Source: Desulfovibrio sp. UCD-KL4C
GTDB lineage: Bacteria > Desulfobacterota > Desulfovibrionia > Desulfovibrionales > Desulfovibrionaceae
Direction of reading: 5' to 3'
NCBI RefSeq assembly: GCF_006210265.1
Contig: NZ_VCNC01000001.1
Span: forward strand, 196,843 to 260,842
DNA length: 64,000 nt
Shown here: piece after piece, positions 1-9,239 of the stretch
Layout: each line of letters starts with the position of its first letter
Numbering within the stretch: position 1 is the stretch's first letter
The notes under the pieces: generated by a model
Databases searched by the model: none
Seen by the model: only the letters and a program-made list of their open reading frames with translations
What the model was told of the DNA's origin: nothing
Program-made: the position numbers and the translations under genes

Positions 1-425
1 TTCGCTTTGCTTCAGACTTTATTTTTGCCGGATATTCTTCAGGAACCCTGTCTTCTTCCATTATGCTCGGGCTAAAAGTTCTTCCGTATTATACTGAGCA
101 GGTATATATAAAAGGGAGAGCTGCAAAAGAACTAGGCTCCTATAAGACTTTTATGCCACGTCCTCCCTACACACACACTAATGCCCGGTGTTTGGCGGGT
201 TATGGAGAATTTTTCGATCTGGAAAACACAGCAAACATTCTAAAGGCTATCAACAGTGAAAATTTCTGGAATAGCTACTCTAAAAGGTTGCCTGAAATTC
301 AAAAGATAGCCTTTGGAGATTATACTCTCGAAGATCCTGAAATCAAAACTTCCAAGCTCATTTTACGTGCATTTATAAAGGGATCGTTTGGGATGGACGC
401 CAGTATTATCAAGATAAAAGAATAG
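1..425 (+). CDS. C-terminal part of a surface-polysaccharide protein, possibly a glycosyltransferase (5' end outside window)
   Basis: The reading frame is open from the first complete codon at position 3, so this is the last ~140 codons of a larger gene and the ATG at 63 is internal. The visible part has a glycine/serine-rich turn (GYSSGTLSSS) followed by an aliphatic strand and YYTEQVYIKG. That resembles the nucleotide-sugar-binding C-terminal half of capsule glycosyltransferases of the sialyl/polysialyltransferase type, but no diagnostic motif can be confirmed. The gene lies just upstream of the phosphoramidate cluster and reads in the same direction, with a 120-bp gap containing a sigma-54-like promoter. 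A polysaccharide role is inferred mainly from context. Confidence 0.4.
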   Translation, partial: RFASDFIFAGYSSGTLSSSIMLGLKVLPYYTEQVYIKGRAAKELGSYKTFMPRPPYTHTNARCLAGYGEFFDLENTANILKAINSENFWNSYSKRLPEIQKIAFGDYTLEDPEIKTSKLILRAFIKGSFGMDASIIKIKE

Positions 426-545: not shown

Positions 546-2939
546 ATGAATGTTGCCCTTGGAACAAAAGCAGAAACTTTAAAAGCCTTACTCAATGCGG
601 GTTTTAACGTACCGAAGGTTTTTTATTTTAAAACTGAGGAATGGGAAAAGGATTTAGATGCTATTTTAAACAGTATTTATCAAAATTTTGCTGAATACAA
701 TTTTATTATTGTGCGTAGTAGTGCCATTGCTGAGGATGGTCACACTGCTTCTGCAGCGGGTGCTTTTGAATCAATTCTTAATATTGATATTAACAATCGC
801 TGCTTTCTAAAAAAAGCTATAACGAAAGTAATTGCCTCTTATGACCGCTCCGAAGGGGATCAGGTTCTAATCCAACCCATGATTTCTGATATTGAAGCCA
901 GCGGGGTAATTATGACCCGTTGCCTCGAAGATGGATCTCCTTACTATGTAATCAATTATGATGATGAATCAGGAAAAACCGACTCCATTACTGGTGGGAG
1001 CGGCGCAAGTAAAACCATCTACATCTATAAAGGTTTTTCTCTGGAAGATTTTAGCTCCAAGCGTGTCAAAAAAATGATGGAGCTTGTTTATTCTTTGGAA
1101 AAGGTATTTCTAAAAATTCCATTAGATATTGAATTTGCCCTCGACCGTAACTTTAAGATGCACCTTTTTCAGGTTCGTAAAATTTGCACGGTGAAAAACT
1201 GGCACCCAAATGTAGAGAGCATTGTTTCCACCAAAATCCGTTTTGTTGAAAATTTTGTTTCCAACTACTTTAAAAAGCGATTTGGCGTTTTTGGTGAGCG
1301 GACAATTTTGGGAGTTATGCCTGATTGGAACCCCGCGGAAATAATAGGAGTCACACCAAAACCTCTTGCGGCCTCGCTATACCGTGAGATTATAACCCGC
1401 TCAACATGGAGAAAAAGTAGAGAAATGATGGGGTATAAAAAAAATGCTCCGGAAGAGCTCATGGTTTTGGTGGCCGGTCGACCCTACATTGATGTCCGCA
1501 ACAGTTTTAACTCCTTTTTACCCGCAGGTCTAAAGCCTGAAGTCGCAGAAAAAGTTGTGAGCGGTTATATTGAGCGTTTGGACAATAACCCTAAATTTCA
1601 TGATAAAGTTGAATTTGAGATTGCGGCAACTATCTTTGACCCTTGTTTTGATGATAATTTTAAAAGACGTTATCCTAGTCTTTTAACTGAATCCGAATTT
1701 AACCAATACAGAGAAAAACTGCTTGAACTGACGAATTTTAATCTCGACCAGAAAAACACCCTGCTGCCTGCTTATGAAAGTATAGAACTGTTAAAATCCC
1801 GGCAAAAAATGTACCCGAAGCTTAGTTGCGATATAAGTTTTTTTGAACTGACTTCTATCCTCCGTTCTCTTTTGGATGATTGTATTGAGTTTGGAACAAT
1901 TCCATTTTCCATTATTGCACGGCACGGTTTTATTGCAGAATCCCTGCTGAGAAGCCTTATACACAAAAAGGGAATCAGCAAGGAACGGGTGGAAGAGTTC
2001 AAAAGATCCATCACAACTGTTTCCGGTGAAATGAGCAAACACTTTAATGAAATCTGTTCAAGCGGTGGTGATAATGAAGTCGCAAAAAAAGATTTTATAG
2101 CCAAATATGGACATTTGCGCCCTGGAACTTATGACATCCTTTCGTTAAAATACTCAGACAGGGAAAATTTATTTTTAAATATTTCGAGTTGCCAGACAGC
2201 AGATCAAATTCACAAAGATTTTGTTTTAAGCTCATCTGAGCGCAAAGCCATGAATAAAATTTTAACAGGAAGCGGAATAGAAAGCGTTGATGCAGAGTTT
2301 TTCCTTGAATACGCCGCCAAAGCTATTTCCGGCAGGGAATATGCCAAATTCATCTTTACAAGAAACCTGTCCCTCATCCTTGACGGCCTTGGTTTGTGGG
2401 GAGAAAAAATAGGGTTGGCCAAGGAAGAAGTAGCCATGCTTAACCTGCCTGACATAATGGATTCGCTTTACTCTCATCTCGATAGTTCTGTTTATGGACA
2501 TTATGAAGAATTGGTCCGCAAAGGTAAAAAGCAGTATGAGTTGGCAAACTACTTCAAGTTAAGCTACTTGATCCGCTCTTCTGCTGACGTTTATGTTGTT
2601 CCCCAGCATCGATGTGCTCCAAATTTTATTACCAGCAAAAGAGTTGAAGCGCCCATAGTTATCGTCAGCAACACTTCCACGGAAAGTGAAAACCTGGCAG
2701 GGGCAATCGTTTGTATTGAAAGTGCAGACCCAGGGTATGACTGGATTTTTACCCGTAAGATAGCAGGGCTGGTGACCAAGTACGGTGGTACCAACTCACA
2801 CATGGCTATCCGCTGTGCAGAGTATGGATTGCCCGCAGTAATTGGTTGTGGGGAAATGCTTTATGATAAAATAAGTGGTGCCAGCTTTTGCTGTCTTGAT
2901 GCGGACCTAAAAAAGATTACCCCTTGCGAGATGAAATAG
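546..2939 (+). CDS. PEP-synthase-like L-glutamine kinase (phosphoramidate pathway, Cj1418 type)
   Basis: The 797-residue protein has the two-part build of PEP synthase/PPDK enzymes. An N-terminal ATP-grasp region carries the VRSSA motif (residues 56-60, IAEDG after it) and GAFES (72-76). A C-terminal phosphohistidine domain carries KYGGTNSHMAIRCAEYG with the catalytic His at about 752. Length and architecture match C. jejuni Cj1418 (about 780 aa), which phosphorylates the amide of L-glutamine using ATP. That function is inferred here because the gene is followed by the Cj1417-, Cj1416- and Cj1415-type partners. It could otherwise be an unspecified PEP-utilising enzyme, but ordinary PEP synthase does not occur with a GATase, a cytidylyltransferase and a CysC homologue. 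The ATG follows a GGAG site. The 3' end precedes the next ATG by 2 bp. Confidence 0.82.
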   Translation: MNVALGTKAETLKALLNAGFNVPKVFYFKTEEWEKDLDAILNSIYQNFAEYNFIIVRSSAIAEDGHTASAAGAFESILNIDINNRCFLKKAITKVIASYDRSEGDQVLIQPMISDIEASGVIMTRCLEDGSPYYVINYDDESGKTDSITGGSGASKTIYIYKGFSLEDFSSKRVKKMMELVYSLEKVFLKIPLDIEFALDRNFKMHLFQVRKICTVKNWHPNVESIVSTKIRFVENFVSNYFKKRFGVFGERTILGVMPDWNPAEIIGVTPKPLAASLYREIITRSTWRKSREMMGYKKNAPEELMVLVAGRPYIDVRNSFNSFLPAGLKPEVAEKVVSGYIERLDNNPKFHDKVEFEIAATIFDPCFDDNFKRRYPSLLTESEFNQYREKLLELTNFNLDQKNTLLPAYESIELLKSRQKMYPKLSCDISFFELTSILRSLLDDCIEFGTIPFSIIARHGFIAESLLRSLIHKKGISKERVEEFKRSITTVSGEMSKHFNEICSSGGDNEVAKKDFIAKYGHLRPGTYDILSLKYSDRENLFLNISSCQTADQIHKDFVLSSSERKAMNKILTGSGIESVDAEFFLEYAAKAISGREYAKFIFTRNLSLILDGLGLWGEKIGLAKEEVAMLNLPDIMDSLYSHLDSSVYGHYEELVRKGKKQYELANYFKLSYLIRSSADVYVVPQHRCAPNFITSKRVEAPIVIVSNTSTESENLAGAIVCIESADPGYDWIFTRKIAGLVTKYGGTNSHMAIRCAEYGLPAVIGCGEMLYDKISGASFCCLDADLKKITPCEMK

Positions 2940-2941
2940 CC

Positions 2942-3577
2942 ATGTCCTTAAAAATTGGTTTGACCATGCGTAGCTGTGACGCAGTAGAGTATGTGGAGCC
3001 ACGTCATGGATTAGCCCTTGATTGGATTCCATTCATGAAGAATGTTTTTTCTGAGGCTGTTTGGACAGGAATTCCCAATCTGGGGAAAGATGCGGTGCGC
3101 CATATAAGAGGTCTTGGAATAAACGCTTTAATCCTTACCGGCGGTGAGGATTTCGGTAAAAATCCTGCCCGTGATGAGTTGGAGTTTGAGCTTATCAAAT
3201 TCTGCCTTGATAACAGCCATCCAATCTTAGGGATTTGCCGTGGAATGCAGGTTTTAAATTTTTATTTTGGGGGACGAATTTCTTCTGTTGCCAGAGAAAA
3301 GCATGTGGCAACAAATCACAAAATATTTTTAAAAAGAGAAATTTGCGGAGTAACAAAAATTGAAGTAAATTCCTTTCATGCCAATGGGATATCAAGATGT
3401 GATCTAGCCTCAGATTTAATACCGATTGCTGTTGATGAAGATGAAAATATTGAAGCTTTCTATCAAGCTGAAAATAAAATACTGGGTCTAATGTGGCACC
3501 CTGAGCGAACATCAAAATCAAACCGTATTGATTATGAATTAATCCACCTTTTTTTTGGGGGAGGGAACTATGAATAA
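2942..3577 (+). CDS. Class I glutamine amidotransferase-fold hydrolase, probable gamma-glutamyl-CDP-amidate hydrolase (Cj1417 type)
   Basis: This 211-residue protein is of the peptidase C26/GATase1 family. The nucleophile elbow GICRGMQ puts the catalytic Cys at 99, and a late WHPER gives His186 and Glu188, completing the triad. No synthase domain is attached, which suits a stand-alone hydrolase. In the Campylobacter pathway the Cj1417 enzyme cleaves CDP-L-glutamine to glutamate and cytidine diphosphoramidate, and that substrate is inferred here from the neighbours. The ATG at 2942 was chosen over the TTG at 2924, which would overlap the kinase gene by 16 bp. The stop overlaps the next gene's start by 8 bp, implying translational coupling. 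A gamma-glutamyl-GABA hydrolase (PuuD-like) is the main alternative on sequence alone. Confidence 0.8.
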   Translation: MSLKIGLTMRSCDAVEYVEPRHGLALDWIPFMKNVFSEAVWTGIPNLGKDAVRHIRGLGINALILTGGEDFGKNPARDELEFELIKFCLDNSHPILGICRGMQVLNFYFGGRISSVAREKHVATNHKIFLKREICGVTKIEVNSFHANGISRCDLASDLIPIAVDEDENIEAFYQAENKILGLMWHPERTSKSNRIDYELIHLFFGGGNYE

Positions 3578-4980
3578 CGTAGATATTGCTATGGTTGCCA
3601 TTAAAAGAAGTGAATATGAGGGACTTTGTGCTTTTGCCAAGATATTACAGGAAAAAGGGCTGACAGTTGCTTTTTTTCATAAGAAAAATATAGGGTTTAT
3701 TCCTGAAGATAGCCGGAATAGTTTTTTTTTACATTTTGAAATTGAAGAGAGTAAGACTTTAGCTGAAACTGCAAAAATTTTCATCGCAAATGATGGTTTA
3801 AGTTCTTTTTTACCCCGCTTTTTTACGGCAAAAATTATCGCGTTTAACCATGCATTTGATGTGTCTGAAGATCTCTCTAATTCATTAAAGCGTTACTATT
3901 CACAATTTGCGGGTCTTGTGGACTATTATTTTATAGCTCGGATGAAAAATAAAAGATGTGTTTCTTTAGATATTGAAAACGACTTTAATGAACTTTATCC
4001 TCAAAACTTTGTAAAAATTTCTATCATACAAGGCATCGCAATAACTTCACAATAGTTTTCTCCGGCTATGTTAGTATTGAAAATTCCCGCCGTATTTGTA
4101 AAGAAAAATGTATACAGAAAGGAGACGCCATCCTTTTTGCTCCTGTGAATTCCAGCAATGCTATCAGCACGAATCCCATACAAATACATTTGAAAATCTT
4201 AATTGCACTTTTAATTAGATTACCTGAAAAAATAATATGTTATAGACCTTCTCCCAATGATAAAAGAGCTGATGAAATACTAAGCATCACGAATAGATTA
4301 AAAAAATACGCTAATTTCTATTTAGATACATCCAAAAATATCACAGACCAATATTATAAATATTCTATCCTTGTAACAGATCAATCCAATATTAGAGTAA
4401 CGTATACTCTTTCAACATATCAGCCCTATGTACAATATATAGAATCGGAAAACAGCATAGCAAAAGAAGAACTTGGCTACAGAGCAGGAAACATTGAAGG
4501 ATTATTGGGTGCAATTCTTCTTGCATATATCAACCAGAAGAAGGGATCAAATCCTATTGAAGATTTTTTAAATAAGAACTTTCCTAATGATTCAGAAAAA
4601 CAATTTGCCAATGATATCTTAAAAATTTTTAATAACGAAGTTTCTTTAGATTGGACAACACTAAAAACAAATCCTAACAAGCTGTTTAATAGCGACTTGG
4701 ATTACGATTCGCTTATAAGAATTCTTGAACTTCAAGAGCGAAAAATCAGGGAAGCATCTGGTATCCGGGTTTCAATCACTCGCCAAGCCGTATGCAAGCA
4801 TCCTGACGATGCACGGATCAGAGCGTTATATATCATGCCCAAATACAGCATGGCAGTTCTGCTTTTCAAATAAAAACAGATTTAAGCAATTTGAAAAGTA
4901 TGGATAATGGTCTAGAAGAGCTGGAAAAACTTCCTTTAACAAAAAAACAGATTCTAAAAATGATGTTCAACTTACTCTGA
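3570..4980 (+). pseudogene. Frameshifted transferase-like gene inside the phosphoramidate cluster
   Basis: An ATG at 3570 with a strong GGGGGAGGG site opens a frame that stops at 4055. From about 4001 a second frame is open and continues without a start codon to 4871. After about 4807 a third frame gives a protein-like tail (HAQIQHGSSAFQIKTDL..., stop at 4980). Together these read as one protein of about 460 residues broken by at least two, probably more, indels near 4001-4055 and 4750-4860. The layout (N-terminal Rossmann-like half, then ILFAP, then a D-x-SN region) loosely resembles CDP-glycerol/teichoic-type phosphotransferases with a GT-B-like fold. A phosphoramidyl-transferase role is only inferred from position. 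The alternatives are true decay or sequencing error. Confidence 0.55.
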
Positions 4981-4993
4981 AGGTAAAAAGATT

Positions 4994-5740
4994 ATGCAGG
5001 CGATTATTTTAGCCGCAGGACGTGGTTCACGAATGAAAGAGGCAACCAAAGATCTACCCAAATGCCTAGTAGAACTTATGGGCAAACCCCTTTTGCATTG
5101 GCAGCTTGAAGCATTACGCAAGGGCGGATCTAGCGATATTCTTGTCGTACGCGGTTATTTGGCAGAAAAGTTGAGCGGTGATTTTTCTACCGTGGACAAC
5201 TTGCGCTGGGCTGACTCAAATATGGTTGAGACTATGCGTCACGCTTCCGCATGGCTGGGAAAAGGCCCTTCTATTATTGCCTATTCCGATATAGTTTACA
5301 GTGCAGAGCATGTGCAAGCCCTAAATAAAAGCAAGTACGATATTTCGATAACTTACGATTCTCTTTGGGAAAATCTTTGGAAAATACGTTTTGAGGATCC
5401 CTTAAGCGATGCGGAAACTTTTCGCGAAGCGGACGGAAAACTTTTGGAGATAGGCGGCAAGGCGACAAGCATTGATGAAATCAAAGGCCAATACATGGGG
5501 TTATTGCGCTTGACTTCTCGTGGCTGGGCTATTTTTTCAGACCTGTTCTCTGAGTTGGGACAAAAAAAAGTGGATAAACTGGACATGACTGCTTTGTTGC
5601 GTTTACTCCTTGATAAAGGAATAGAAATAGGCGCTGTTTCAGTAGCCGGCAAATGGGCTGAAGTTGATTCCATGGAAGACCTTATAGTCTATGAAAATAT
5701 TTTAGCCCAAACAAAGGCTTGGAGCCATGATTGGCGGTAA
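4994..5740 (+). CDS. Nucleotidyltransferase, probable CTP:phosphoglutamine cytidylyltransferase (Cj1416 type)
   Basis: The protein has 248 residues and opens with the nucleotidyltransferase signature LAAGRGSRM followed by the LPKCLVEL lysine segment. IAYSDIVYS provides the metal-binding Asp in the middle, which is the fold of LicC/GlmU-N-type cytidylyltransferases. In the C. jejuni pathway the equivalent enzyme joins CTP and L-glutamine phosphate to make CDP-L-glutamine. Length (about 250 aa) and clustering with the kinase and amidohydrolase support the same step here. Sequence alone could equally indicate a phosphocholine cytidylyltransferase, but no choline kinase or transporter is present. 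A GAAGG site precedes the ATG, and the next gene starts 15 bp after the stop. Confidence 0.75.
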   Translation: MQAIILAAGRGSRMKEATKDLPKCLVELMGKPLLHWQLEALRKGGSSDILVVRGYLAEKLSGDFSTVDNLRWADSNMVETMRHASAWLGKGPSIIAYSDIVYSAEHVQALNKSKYDISITYDSLWENLWKIRFEDPLSDAETFREADGKLLEIGGKATSIDEIKGQYMGLLRLTSRGWAIFSDLFSELGQKKVDKLDMTALLRLLLDKGIEIGAVSVAGKWAEVDSMEDLIVYENILAQTKAWSHDWR

Positions 5741-5755
5741 TTAAAGGAGTTGAAA

Positions 5756-6526
5756 ATGAAACATGGTGATTTTACGGGATTAGCAAAGGATTATAGCCGG
5801 TACCGCCCTGGGTATTCAGGATTTATTGTTGATTTTATTTGCGATGCGGTAAAAGGGAAATTGGGAAACGAGGGATTAAAGGCTGTTGACGCTGGGGCAG
5901 GAACAGGCATTTTTAGCCGCATGCTGGCAGAGAGAGGTTTTTCTGTTCTGGCAGCTGAGCCCAATAATGATATGCGCAAATTTGGTATTAAGGATTGTGA
6001 AAACTATGATGTTACATACATTGAAAGCCCTGCTGAAAAAATAGATACAGAAGATAATTCCTGCCATTTAATTACTATGGCTTCATCCTTCCACTGGCCA
6101 GATTTTGATCAGGCAATACAGGAATTTAATCGAATTTTGAAATCTAATGGGGTGTTCACTGCCCTTTGGAATACAAGAGCCGTTGAAAGAGATTCCATTA
6201 CAGCGGATATTGAAAAATATTTGCAGGACCTTGTTCCTGAAATGAAAAGAAAATCGTCTGGACGATCTGAGTTTTGTGATAATTTAACAGACCGTTTATC
6301 TAAATGTGGTTCTTTTGGAGATGCAGCATATTTAGAAAGTTTTCATGTAGAAAAACAAACCATTGACCATTATATTGGCCTTTGGCGTTCTGTAAACGAT
6401 GTTCAAGTTCAAGCTGGCCCTGAAAGATTTGAGAAGTTCATTAATTACATAAAAGAAAGAACAAATGGTGAGCCATACATTAACGCACACTATCAAACCC
6501 GTGTATGGGTCGCTCAAAAGAGATAA
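5756..6526 (+). CDS. Class I SAM-dependent methyltransferase, candidate phosphoramidate O-methyltransferase
   Basis: This 256-residue methyltransferase carries motif I VDAGAGTGIFSRML (about residues 45-58), an acidic end of strand 2 (AAEPN), and ASSFHWPDF followed by LKSNGVF, the usual type-11 layout. The start at 5756 was chosen because AAAGGAG lies 8 bp upstream; a TTG at 5750 is the alternative. The gene lies between the cytidylyltransferase and the CysC-like kinase, as methyltransferase genes do in the Campylobacter O-methyl-phosphoramidate locus (Cj1419/Cj1420). The acceptor is therefore inferred to be a phosphoramidate intermediate. A sugar O-methyltransferase is possible. The stop is 2 bp before the next ATG, so the two genes are tightly coupled. 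Confidence 0.7.
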   Translation: MKHGDFTGLAKDYSRYRPGYSGFIVDFICDAVKGKLGNEGLKAVDAGAGTGIFSRMLAERGFSVLAAEPNNDMRKFGIKDCENYDVTYIESPAEKIDTEDNSCHLITMASSFHWPDFDQAIQEFNRILKSNGVFTALWNTRAVERDSITADIEKYLQDLVPEMKRKSSGRSEFCDNLTDRLSKCGSFGDAAYLESFHVEKQTIDHYIGLWRSVNDVQVQAGPERFEKFINYIKERTNGEPYINAHYQTRVWVAQKR

Positions 6527-6528
6527 TT

Positions 6529-7050
6529 ATGAAAGGCAAAGTAATTTGGCTAACAGGTCTGTCAGCATCTGGAAAATCAACAATAGCCCATGAGATACAG
6601 CAACTCCTCAAAAAGCGGAAAATAATTCCGCTACTGCTTGATGGAGATGAGTTTCGTGAGGCTGTGGCTGATCACAACTGCGGACATGACCCCAAAAACA
6701 GGATTATAAATGCATATCGAATTAGCCGCTTTGCCAATTTAGCAGTAAGGCAGGGACTGGTGGTCATTGTGGCCACTATGTCCCTTTACCATGAAATCCA
6801 TAATTGGAACCGTAATAATTTTCCTGATTACTACGAGGTACTTATTAAGGCTGATTTAGAAACATTAAAACAAAGGGACCCTAAAGGGTTGTATAAAAAT
6901 TTTAGCAGTGGAGATGCCCAAAATATTCCCGGAATGGATTTAGAACCCGAATTTCCTTTAAATCCAGACTTGATAATAGAAAATAACGGGCAAATCAATG
7001 AAGTTAAAAAAGTAGCAAAAAGAATATTAAATAATTGCGATCTTCTATAA
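6529..7050 (+). CDS. CysC/APS-kinase-like nucleotide kinase, probable cytidine diphosphoramidate kinase (Cj1415 type)
   Basis: The 173-residue protein has the Walker A sequence GLSASGKST at residues 10-18, the LDGDEFREAV segment and the later KGLYKN motif of adenylylsulfate kinases. No ATP sulfurylase or PAPS enzyme is nearby, and the gene closes a run of glutamine kinase, amidohydrolase, cytidylyltransferase and methyltransferase. It is therefore most likely the 3'-kinase of cytidine diphosphoramidate known from C. jejuni Cj1415, which has the same fold and length (about 170 aa). The ATG at 6529 was preferred over an upstream in-frame start inside the methyltransferase gene. Classical APS kinase activity cannot be excluded by sequence alone. 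Confidence 0.75.
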   Translation: MKGKVIWLTGLSASGKSTIAHEIQQLLKKRKIIPLLLDGDEFREAVADHNCGHDPKNRIINAYRISRFANLAVRQGLVVIVATMSLYHEIHNWNRNNFPDYYEVLIKADLETLKQRDPKGLYKNFSSGDAQNIPGMDLEPEFPLNPDLIIENNGQINEVKKVAKRILNNCDLL

Positions 7051-7591: not shown

Positions 7592-7911
7592 TGCTCTAGA
7601 TTGATTCAAAAACTCAGGTGTTCATTGTTCTCGGGACAACGGACATGCGTAAAGCTATCAAAGGTTTGTCCATTGTCGTCGCAGATTATCTAGATTTGAA
7701 TGTTTTTTTCGGTAACTTCTTTGTTTTCTGCAATCGCAATAGAATTTTTGTTAAAATTCGTTATTGGGATCGTAACGGCTTTTGTCTCTGGCAAAAACGT
7801 TTTGAAAAACATCGGTTTTCATGGCCTGAATCAGAAGGAGAGGTATTAGAATTAAGCCATCGACAATTGCGCTGGATTTTAGATGGTCTTGATCCAATGC
7901 AGGTAAAATGA
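7591..7911 (+). pseudogene. Degenerate IS66 TnpB
   Basis: This is a TnpB protein of about 105 codons with the family landmarks TDMRKAIKGL, FVFCNRNRIFVKIRYWDRNGF and LSHRQLRWILDGLD. The original ATG at 7591 overlaps the TnpA stop (TAATG) but has an in-frame TAG as its third codon, so translation from it would terminate at once. The remainder from 7618 is open. Confidence 0.78.
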
Positions 7912-7993
7912 CATCCCTGTTTAAGCTATAAGAACATACTTTTATCATTTTAATTAATTGATATTTGTGAGCTGATTAAATAGATTAAGCATT

Positions 7994-9239
7994 ATGAAAA
8001 CTGCTGATTTATCTAATGACCCCAAGGATCTTAAATGGTCTGAAGCTGCCGATTGACCAGAATAGGCGAAGTCATCAGTGAAAAACTTGATATAATACCT
8101 CAGAAAATCACAGTGAAACTACATATCTGCCACAAATACGCCTGTCGTAGTTGCGAAGGCTTAGAGGGTGATGGGCCGACAGTTAAAATAGCCTCGATGA
8201 GCTCCGCAATTAATTAAGCAAGGAATCGTCACCCCGGGGCTTCTCGCATATATTTTCATTAATAAATTTGCGACGAACTACCTTTTTATCGACAAAACAA
8301 GATGTTTGAGAGGCTGGGGATTGATATTTTACGATCAACGATGTTGAGTTGGGCAATTCAAACTGCACAAAAGTGCGAGCCGCTCCTGGAGCTTTTTTAT
8401 AAAAAATTGCGTGTCGGAAATATCATTAATATAGATGAAACGCCGCCGCAGGTTTTAAAGGAACCGGTCCGTAAAAATACGACCAAATCTTATAGGTGGA
8501 TGGCCAAAGGCGGAACTGAGAGAAAGCCCGTGGTTATTTTCAGGTGTTCACCGAGTCGGTCCGGAACTGTCGCTGAAAAGATTGTGGGAGACTTTTATGG
8601 TTTCTTGCAATCCGCTGGATATGCAGGATATAATGAGCTTGAAAAATATGATGCAATAACTAGTGTCGGCTGTCTGGTGCATGTCCGCATAAAATTCATG
8701 ATATCGTCAAAGCTGGCTCAAAGAAGAAAAAGGGAACTGCTACTAGTGTATTGAATTTGATCAGCAAGATTTATCAAATTGAAGGACAGGCAAAAAACAG
8801 AAATTGCACCTGATTAAATCCTTGCCTTACCAGAAGAAAAGGTAAGACCACTTTTTGATAAAATTGCAGATATTTTAAAAAATCAGCAGGCAATGTTCCT
8901 CTAAAATATCTCTTAGGACAAGCCATAGCCTACGGTCTGAAGCAATGGTCCCGTGTTGAAGCCTGCCTTAAGAATCCATATCTCACGCCCGATAATAATG
9001 TTGCTGAAAATGCAATCCACCCATTCGCCACCGATCGCAAAAACTGGCTGTTCTCCGGTTATCCTCGAGGAGCAAAATCTAGTGCGACAATATACAGCCT
9101 GATCGAAACCGCAAAAGCAAATGGTCTCAATCCCTACGAATATTAGATCTATATATTTGAAAAGCTTCCCTTCATAGATTCTGCACATAATCTTGAAGCT
9201 TTGCTTCCATGGGAAATGCAAAAAGACAAAGCAATATAG
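7994..9239 (+). pseudogene. Degenerate IS66 transposase TnpC
   Basis: The frame starts at an ATG (7994) and is soon interrupted by several stops. A 150-codon open piece (8302-8754) contains the DDE-domain start (NIIDETP-like segment NIINIDETPPQVL and RWMAKGG). A further piece (about 8905-9239) matches the C-terminus, including NVAENAIHPF, DRKNWLFSGYPRGAKSSA and ETAKANGLNPYEY. Multiple frameshifts, stops and probable deletions make it non-functional. Confidence 0.82.

Follow-up and report, generated by a model that had tools for sequence, protein, structure and literature searches.

A conserved gene cassette in Desulfovibrio sp. UCD-KL4C with the predicted capacity to make an activated phosphoramidate donor

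Can a sulfate reducer make the donor with which Campylobacter places phosphoramidate groups on its capsule? P-N groups on bacterial surfaces have been described as a Campylobacter trait (PMC6429109), and four Campylobacter enzymes are known to lead to 3'-phospho-CDP-amidate (PMC11800397, PMC6429109). The question is raised by five genes on the forward strand at positions 546-7050 of a 64,000-nucleotide stretch of the Desulfovibrio sp. UCD-KL4C genome, here called the window, which a preliminary description had read as such a pathway. The co-occurrence of the five families was borne out, with all five core frames intact in place in a reading-frame check and family scans in agreement for each of the five, and glycosyltransferase, epimerase and aminotransferase genes lie around them.

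We propose that this operon makes an activated phosphoramidate donor, as in Campylobacter capsule decoration, and we put the probability of this reading at roughly 0.8. In the proposed pathway the product of the glutamine kinase-like protein (GK) would be joined to CTP by the cytidylyltransferase to give gamma-glutamyl-CDP-amidate, from which a Cys/His/Glu hydrolase would strip glutamate, leaving CDP-amidate. The CysC-like kinase would then phosphorylate the 3' hydroxyl of CDP-amidate, and a transferase, most likely the product of an upstream gene that we call c13, would move the phosphoramidate group onto a sugar of a surface glycan, with the methyltransferase probably capping a phosphate oxygen. 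It is by inference that we assign to these homologues the reactions of their counterparts, and likewise that we name a transferase, include a methyl step and take a surface glycan as the target. In a comparison that draws on an NCBI family model, on the published functions of the genes and on the logic of the chemistry, the cassette holds the same four kinds of enzyme as C. jejuni Cj1415-Cj1418, in the order that the Cj locus numbers imply and with a methyltransferase nearby. It differs in that the window methyltransferase sits between the cytidylyltransferase and CysC, and in that the host is a sulfate reducer.

The 797-residue GK (546-2939) carries an ATP-binding PPDK_N domain at its N-terminus and a phosphohistidine PEP-utilizers domain at its C-terminus, and scores 902.6 bits on NF004508 (cut-off 501). 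An ATP-binding N-terminal domain and a mobile phosphohistidine domain are common to GK and to PEP synthase and pyruvate phosphate dikinase, but the PEP/pyruvate-binding C-terminal domain of those enzymes was not detected in GK by a Pfam domain scan. An ordinary PEP synthase was rejected on this ground and on a score of only 52 bits against the TIGR01418 cut-off of 739.75. The phosphohistidine had been placed correctly beforehand, His752 being invariant among 11 aligned homologues, and so had the catalytic residues of the hydrolase (2942-3577), where Cys99, His186 and Glu188 are invariant in 36 homologues. These positions are counted from the ATG at 2942; from the TTG at 2924, with which the mechanical open reading frame begins, they become Cys105, His192 and Glu194. 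Among 18,950 NCBI models the best match of this class-I glutamine amidotransferase is gamma-glutamyl-CDP-amidate hydrolase, NF045546, at 109 bits, which is below the curated cut-off of 250 and well above the next model at 49; the same model is matched by all 36 cassette hydrolase homologues. The gamma-glutamyl-GABA hydrolase PuuD (NF008471) was discarded as an identity at 34 bits against a cut-off of 266.

The nucleotidylyltransferase (4994-5740; NTP_transf_3) matched no specific family model in NCBIfam and Pfam scans and is placed only generically, as a LicC/MurU-like NTP transferase. The nearest solved structure is the CTP:phosphocholine cytidylyltransferase 1jyk (E 4e-11, residues 2-60). 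It shares the N-terminal nucleotidyltransferase signature LAAGxGSR with LicC (1jyk) and MurU, and the alignment to these is limited to the first 60-110 residues of the cassette enzyme; the remaining part is conserved and cassette-specific, which suggests a substrate other than that of LicC or MurU. The cassette homologues are 34-85% identical and one lies near GK in 41 of 43 loci. We propose that it is a CTP:phosphoglutamine cytidylyltransferase, while another phospho-substrate could also be used. As to whether the cassette proteins are simply the ordinary homologues of their families, a doubt attached to the earlier reading, GK, the hydrolase and CysC do depart from PEP synthase, PuuD and APS kinase, whereas the cytidylyltransferase is only generically LicC/MurU-like.

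We compared 43 GK loci outside the source genome, each flanked on either side by 7 kb of sequence or more. A hydrolase, a cytidylyltransferase and a CysC stand beside GK in 40 of them, and since these loci were collected independently the clustering is not due to chance. Taken together, a conserved cassette and proteins that depart from their ordinary homologues as predicted largely support the phosphoramidate-pathway interpretation, and in its details support it in part.

The methyltransferase (5756-6526; SAM-dependent, Methyltransf_11) is proposed to perform the O-methylation step, a step without characterised precedent, since knockouts of C. jejuni Cj1419 and Cj1420 left the capsule unchanged (PMC11800397). 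Among 90 cassette loci a methyltransferase is found in 24 and a formyltransferase-like module in 41, and in none do the two occur together, which suggests swappable tailoring. The formyl-type cassettes encode a formyltransferase-like enzyme whose catalytic Asn is replaced by His, together with an all-helical partner, c2, whose predicted structure (pLDDT 87) has no solved relative at E<=0.001. It is possible, if rather unlikely, that the pathway runs as far as CDP-amidate or its 3'-phosphate but ends in a product other than a polysaccharide bearing O-methyl phosphoramidate. This could be, for example, a phosphoramidate without the methyl group, like that of Xanthomonas or Shewanella LPS, or a small molecule, and the methyltransferase would then modify a sugar. 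Such an outcome is favoured by the silent Cj1419/Cj1420 knockouts, by the absence of the methyltransferase from most cassettes, which have the formyltransferase-like module or neither instead, and by the precedent of unmethylated phosphoramidate LPS cited for Xanthomonas campestris and Shewanella (PMC3907429). It fits less well with the position of the methyltransferase between two core genes, kept in many Desulfovibrionaceae and in other cassettes, and the exclusivity with the formyl module suggests that the methyltransferase belongs to the chemistry of the cassette.

The hydrolase and the cytidylyltransferase are direct neighbours in relatives, but in the source genome they are parted by a 1.4-kb gene in pieces (3570-4980), so that the operon is less compact than had been claimed. 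This gene has undergone two frame changes, leaving pieces at 3570-4055 and about 4041-4873 and a tail to 4980, and these align one after the other along a single profile, at positions 84-157 weakly (E 2.6e-4) and at 177-413 clearly (E 8e-27). Intact members of its family (TR) are about 540-670 residues long and match the PF04464-like family c7 with a probability of 100; an intact paralogue lies at L021:8919-10532. The preliminary description took this broken gene to be the final transferase, and it proves not to be the sole candidate. Directly upstream stands c13, an intact CDP-glycerol-transferase-like gene that ends 121 bp before GK in the source genome (G000); its 3' part occupies 1-425 of the window, and the whole gene (L021:17391-18425) encodes 344 residues in a 371-residue open frame. 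It lies beside the cassette in G000, G002, L034, L037 (twice) and L043, and among 146 relatives it is present only in G000 and G002, both of which bear the cassette. Neither c13 nor the broken gene has a significant Pfam match on its own, and c13 is related to c7 at an hhalign probability of 97.8-98.8. Structure prediction from four sequences gave an unusable model (pLDDT 40), so the fold of c13 is assigned by profile comparison only. Both genes are profile-level relatives of the PF04464 (TagF-like) glycerophosphotransferases, a family that uses CDP-linked donors, and CDP-glycerol-transferase-like genes adjoin 31 of 92 cassette loci. On these sequence comparisons c13 is a remote relative of the CDP-glycerol:poly(glycerophosphate) glycerophosphotransferases and a candidate phosphoramidate transferase. 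The C. jejuni transferases Cj1421 and Cj1422 have no recognised counterpart in the window in a comparison made without the Campylobacter sequences, the candidates here being CDP-glycerol-transferase-like.

A further alternative is that the chemistry was once present and that the strain, having lost its transferase, now makes no product. Besides the two frame changes of the TR gene, a second cassette survives as a decayed fragment (NTP'-MT-CysC') about 13 kb upstream, IS-like remnants lie downstream, and in a close relative (G007) both the cytidylyltransferase and the methyltransferase of the sister cassette carry internal deletions. The broken insert, the decayed second piece and the G007 deletions indicate that cassettes decay in the genus and that current function is not assured. 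The five core frames are nevertheless intact with their catalytic residues conserved, and c13 is intact upstream, and for this strain we regard loss of the product as unlikely.

The CysC-like kinase (6505-7050; P-loop GLSASGKST) shares with APS kinase the P-loop kinase fold, the catalytic residues and an Arg/Arg/Asn set, which in APS kinases contacts the anion. It scores 164 bits on PRK05541 (cut-off 127) and 130 bits on the apsK model TIGR00455, short of the cut-off of 138.7; the genome's own APS kinase shows the reverse, 117 and 207 bits. In a tree, 58 of 60 cassette CysC proteins fall outside the APS-kinase clade, as does that of the window. In the window protein LGFS has lost its Phe, ISP its Pro and NFTG its Thr, changes that lie on the adenine/nucleoside side. 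An ordinary APS kinase was rejected on these three grounds, and we propose that the protein is a CDP-amidate 3'-kinase distinct from APS kinase. The earlier remark that no ATP sulfurylase accompanies it holds locally and fails genome-wide, as one is encoded at C1:43431. That the operon serves sulfation, with CysC supplying PAPS and the other genes acting on unrelated sugars, is very improbable: a sulfate reducer with an ATP sulfurylase and the sulfotransferase-domain genes adjoining several cassettes would suit it, but an ordinary APS kinase already resides within another polysaccharide cluster (C2:495934), the window operon has no PAPS-generating partner, and this CysC, with its altered sequence, accompanies GK and the hydrolase across phyla and does not travel with sulfurylase. 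Among 30 related genomes, a cassette-type CysC occurs in exactly the seven that have a full-length GK and in one with a GK fragment (G006).

The chemistry had been called rare outside Campylobacter, a view that the distribution of the cassette contradicts. A profile search of genome contigs returned more than 580 matches, the best 80 of which supplied the loci from this search, and the bacteria that carry the cassette belong to about a dozen phyla. The 'rare' chemistry may thus be common. GK relatives are also carried on plasmids of Vibrio, Azospirillum, Cupriavidus and others, and on no Campylobacter plasmid in the plasmid search; the viral contigs searched held none, which leaves carriage by phage unsupported.

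We lean slightly towards a wider reading, in which donor synthesis is widespread and no Campylobacter speciality, tailoring takes at least two interchangeable forms (methyl, or formyltransferase-like with c2), and CDP-glycerol-transferase-like proteins are the usual final transferases. In Campylobacter, surface P-N groups have a part in the binding of phages, in resistance to serum and in invasion. If the cassette acts as its genes suggest, hundreds of bacteria in about a dozen phyla would be able to make the same donor, and many proteins annotated as 'PEP synthase', 'glutamine amidotransferase' or 'adenylylsulfate kinase' would be misnamed. The cassette would then provide a gene marker for P-N chemistry, along with candidate genes for its transferase and methyl steps.

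The five genes of the cassette lie intact on the + strand at 546-7050, as the preliminary description had held, and family scans confirm their assignment: a PEP-synthase-like glutamine kinase (GK, 546-2939), a class-I glutamine-amidotransferase-type hydrolase (2942-3577), a LicC/MurU-like nucleotidyltransferase (4994-5740), a SAM methyltransferase (5756-6526) and a CysC-like kinase (6505-7050). In Campylobacter jejuni, Cj1415-Cj1418 produce 3'-phospho-CDP-amidate from glutamine, ATP and CTP (PMC11800397; PMC6429109). That this cassette would likewise encode donor synthesis is supported by the scores of GK, hydrolase and CysC, by invariant residues and by gene linkage, the window enzymes being tied to Cj1415-Cj1418 by family model and logic rather than by direct alignment. 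GK scores 902.6 bits against NF004508 (cut-off 501) but only 52 bits against the PEP synthase model (cut-off 740); family and domain scans found no PEP-binding C-terminal domain in it, and its His752 is invariant among aligned homologues. The top match of the hydrolase among 18,950 models is gamma-glutamyl-CDP-amidate hydrolase, at 109 bits, below the curated cut-off of 250, followed by a next best of 49 bits and PuuD at 34 bits. The same model is matched by all 36 cassette hydrolase homologues tested, and the Cys, His and Glu are invariant among cassette homologues. The nucleotidyltransferase is LicC-like only in a generic sense.

In sequence, the CysC-like kinase is distinct from APS kinase. 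It passes PRK05541 (164 bits, cut-off 127) and falls below the apsK cut-off (130 versus 138.7 bits), whereas the genome's own APS kinase shows the reverse pattern (117 and 207 bits); in a phylogeny of 93 sequences, the APS-kinase clade (97/93 support) excludes 58 of the 60 cassette CysC proteins, the window protein included. In APS kinases an Arg/Arg/Asn set faces the anion and a Phe stacks on the adenine. The window protein keeps the catalytic residues and the Arg/Arg/Asn set and lacks three residues that are near-universal in APS kinases (LGFS Phe, ISP Pro and NFTG Thr); because the anion-side residues are kept and the adenine-stacking Phe is lost, the pattern would fit a nucleotide carrying another base. 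The organism is a sulfate reducer (dsrA above cut-off) and its genome has an ATP sulfurylase, contrary to the earlier claim that none is present. The ordinary APS kinase lies inside another polysaccharide cluster (locus L113, C2:495934-496374), flanked by genes resembling those for polysaccharide export and undecaprenyl-phosphate sugar transferases, so a sulfated exopolysaccharide is likely in Desulfovibrio sp. UCD-KL4C.

The final transferase had been described as apparently broken, and the 1.4-kb gene between hydrolase and nucleotidyltransferase (3570-4980) does carry two frame changes; in relatives these two genes adjoin directly, with no such gene between them. By profile match it belongs to TR, which together with c7 and c13 forms a set of cassette-neighbouring profile relatives of CDP-glycerol glycerophosphotransferases (hhalign 97.8-98.8 for c13 versus c7 and 100 for TR versus c7, with unrelated neighbour clusters near zero; one c7 member matches PF04464), jointly present in 31 of 92 loci. 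The broken gene need not mean that a transferase is missing, since an intact c13 lies directly upstream of GK, at a distance of 121 bp (L021:17391-18425 in the extended region of this genome, window 1-425 holding its end only); among 146 relatives c13 occurs only in this genome and G002, each time next to the cassette. Sulfotransferases bind a 3'-phosphorylated nucleotide, and sulfotransferase-domain proteins in or beside cassette operons (L022:13190-14284, L025:6964-8160, L039:8417-9679) therefore form a second candidate class; a 695-aa protein with similar motifs is similarly placed (L023:14323-16410). We infer that c7/c13/TR-type and sulfotransferase-type proteins are candidate phosphoramidate transferases.

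The methyltransferase occurs in 24 of 90 loci and the formyltransferase-like c0 and/or its partner c2 in 41, and in none do the two alternatives meet (Fisher p 1.7e-8, related loci not being independent), so the methyltransferase probably belongs to the cassette's own chemistry, a role that fits candidate O-methylation. Knockouts of the methyltransferase-like Cj1419 and Cj1420 in C. jejuni gave no visible change (PMC11800397). At least 4-5 tailoring switches are needed on the GK tree; L039 and L099, which are sisters in it, differ in this way. In the second, formyl-type form (L027, L028, L030, L031 and many of L048-L112), c7 is nearly always directly upstream of CysC, c0 has H-x-H in place of the formyltransferase N-x-H, and c2, sometimes fused to c0, is a predicted all-helical family of 180-240 aa for which no Pfam or PDB relatives were found.

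Rarity outside Campylobacter, as first proposed, does not hold. Scanning one genome per species for GK, neighbours ignored, matched at least 581 stretches, the best 80 of which span about a dozen phyla (Thermodesulfobacteriota, Pseudomonadota, Myxococcota, Verrucomicrobiota, Planctomycetota, Acidobacteriota, Omnitrophota, Fibrobacterota, Bacillota, Cyanobacteriota, Actinomycetota and candidate phyla), many being metagenome bins whose individual phylum assignments may be wrong. Hydrolase, nucleotidyltransferase and CysC lie within 8 kb of GK in 40 of the 43 loci among these 80 whose available sequence extends at least 7 kb in each direction. Full-length GK is present in 12 of 148 genomes of the order, and among 30 relatives scanned the genomes with cassette-type CysC are exactly the seven that have full-length GK and, in addition, G006 with its GK fragment; the cassette is therefore patchy and accessory.

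Just downstream of the cassette (7618-8754) are fragments resembling, by eye, IS66-type transposase genes. A 394-aa NAD-dependent epimerase/dehydratase (PF01370, 12684-13868) resembles UDP-sulfoquinovose synthase by eye, and this putative enzyme may supply the same glycan with a sulfosugar. The remnant of a second, different cassette lies some 13 kb upstream of the window (L021:4026-5306, C1:182868-184148), comprising a nucleotidyltransferase 3' end (48% identity), a whole methyltransferase (31%) and the first half of a CysC-like kinase (67%), cut off downstream. In the sister genome G007 (L027:9403-16389), GK, hydrolase and CysC are intact and the nucleotidyltransferase and methyltransferase have internal deletions; a formyl-type fragment adjoins on the opposite strand. 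Within the genus, cassettes are gained and lost; the window copy retains intact core genes and may be active. As GK homologues sit on plasmids (H1-H14) of Vibrio alfacsensis, Azospirillum, Agrobacterium/Allorhizobium, Cupriavidus, Roseovarius and others, transfer of the cassette from one bacterium to another is probable.
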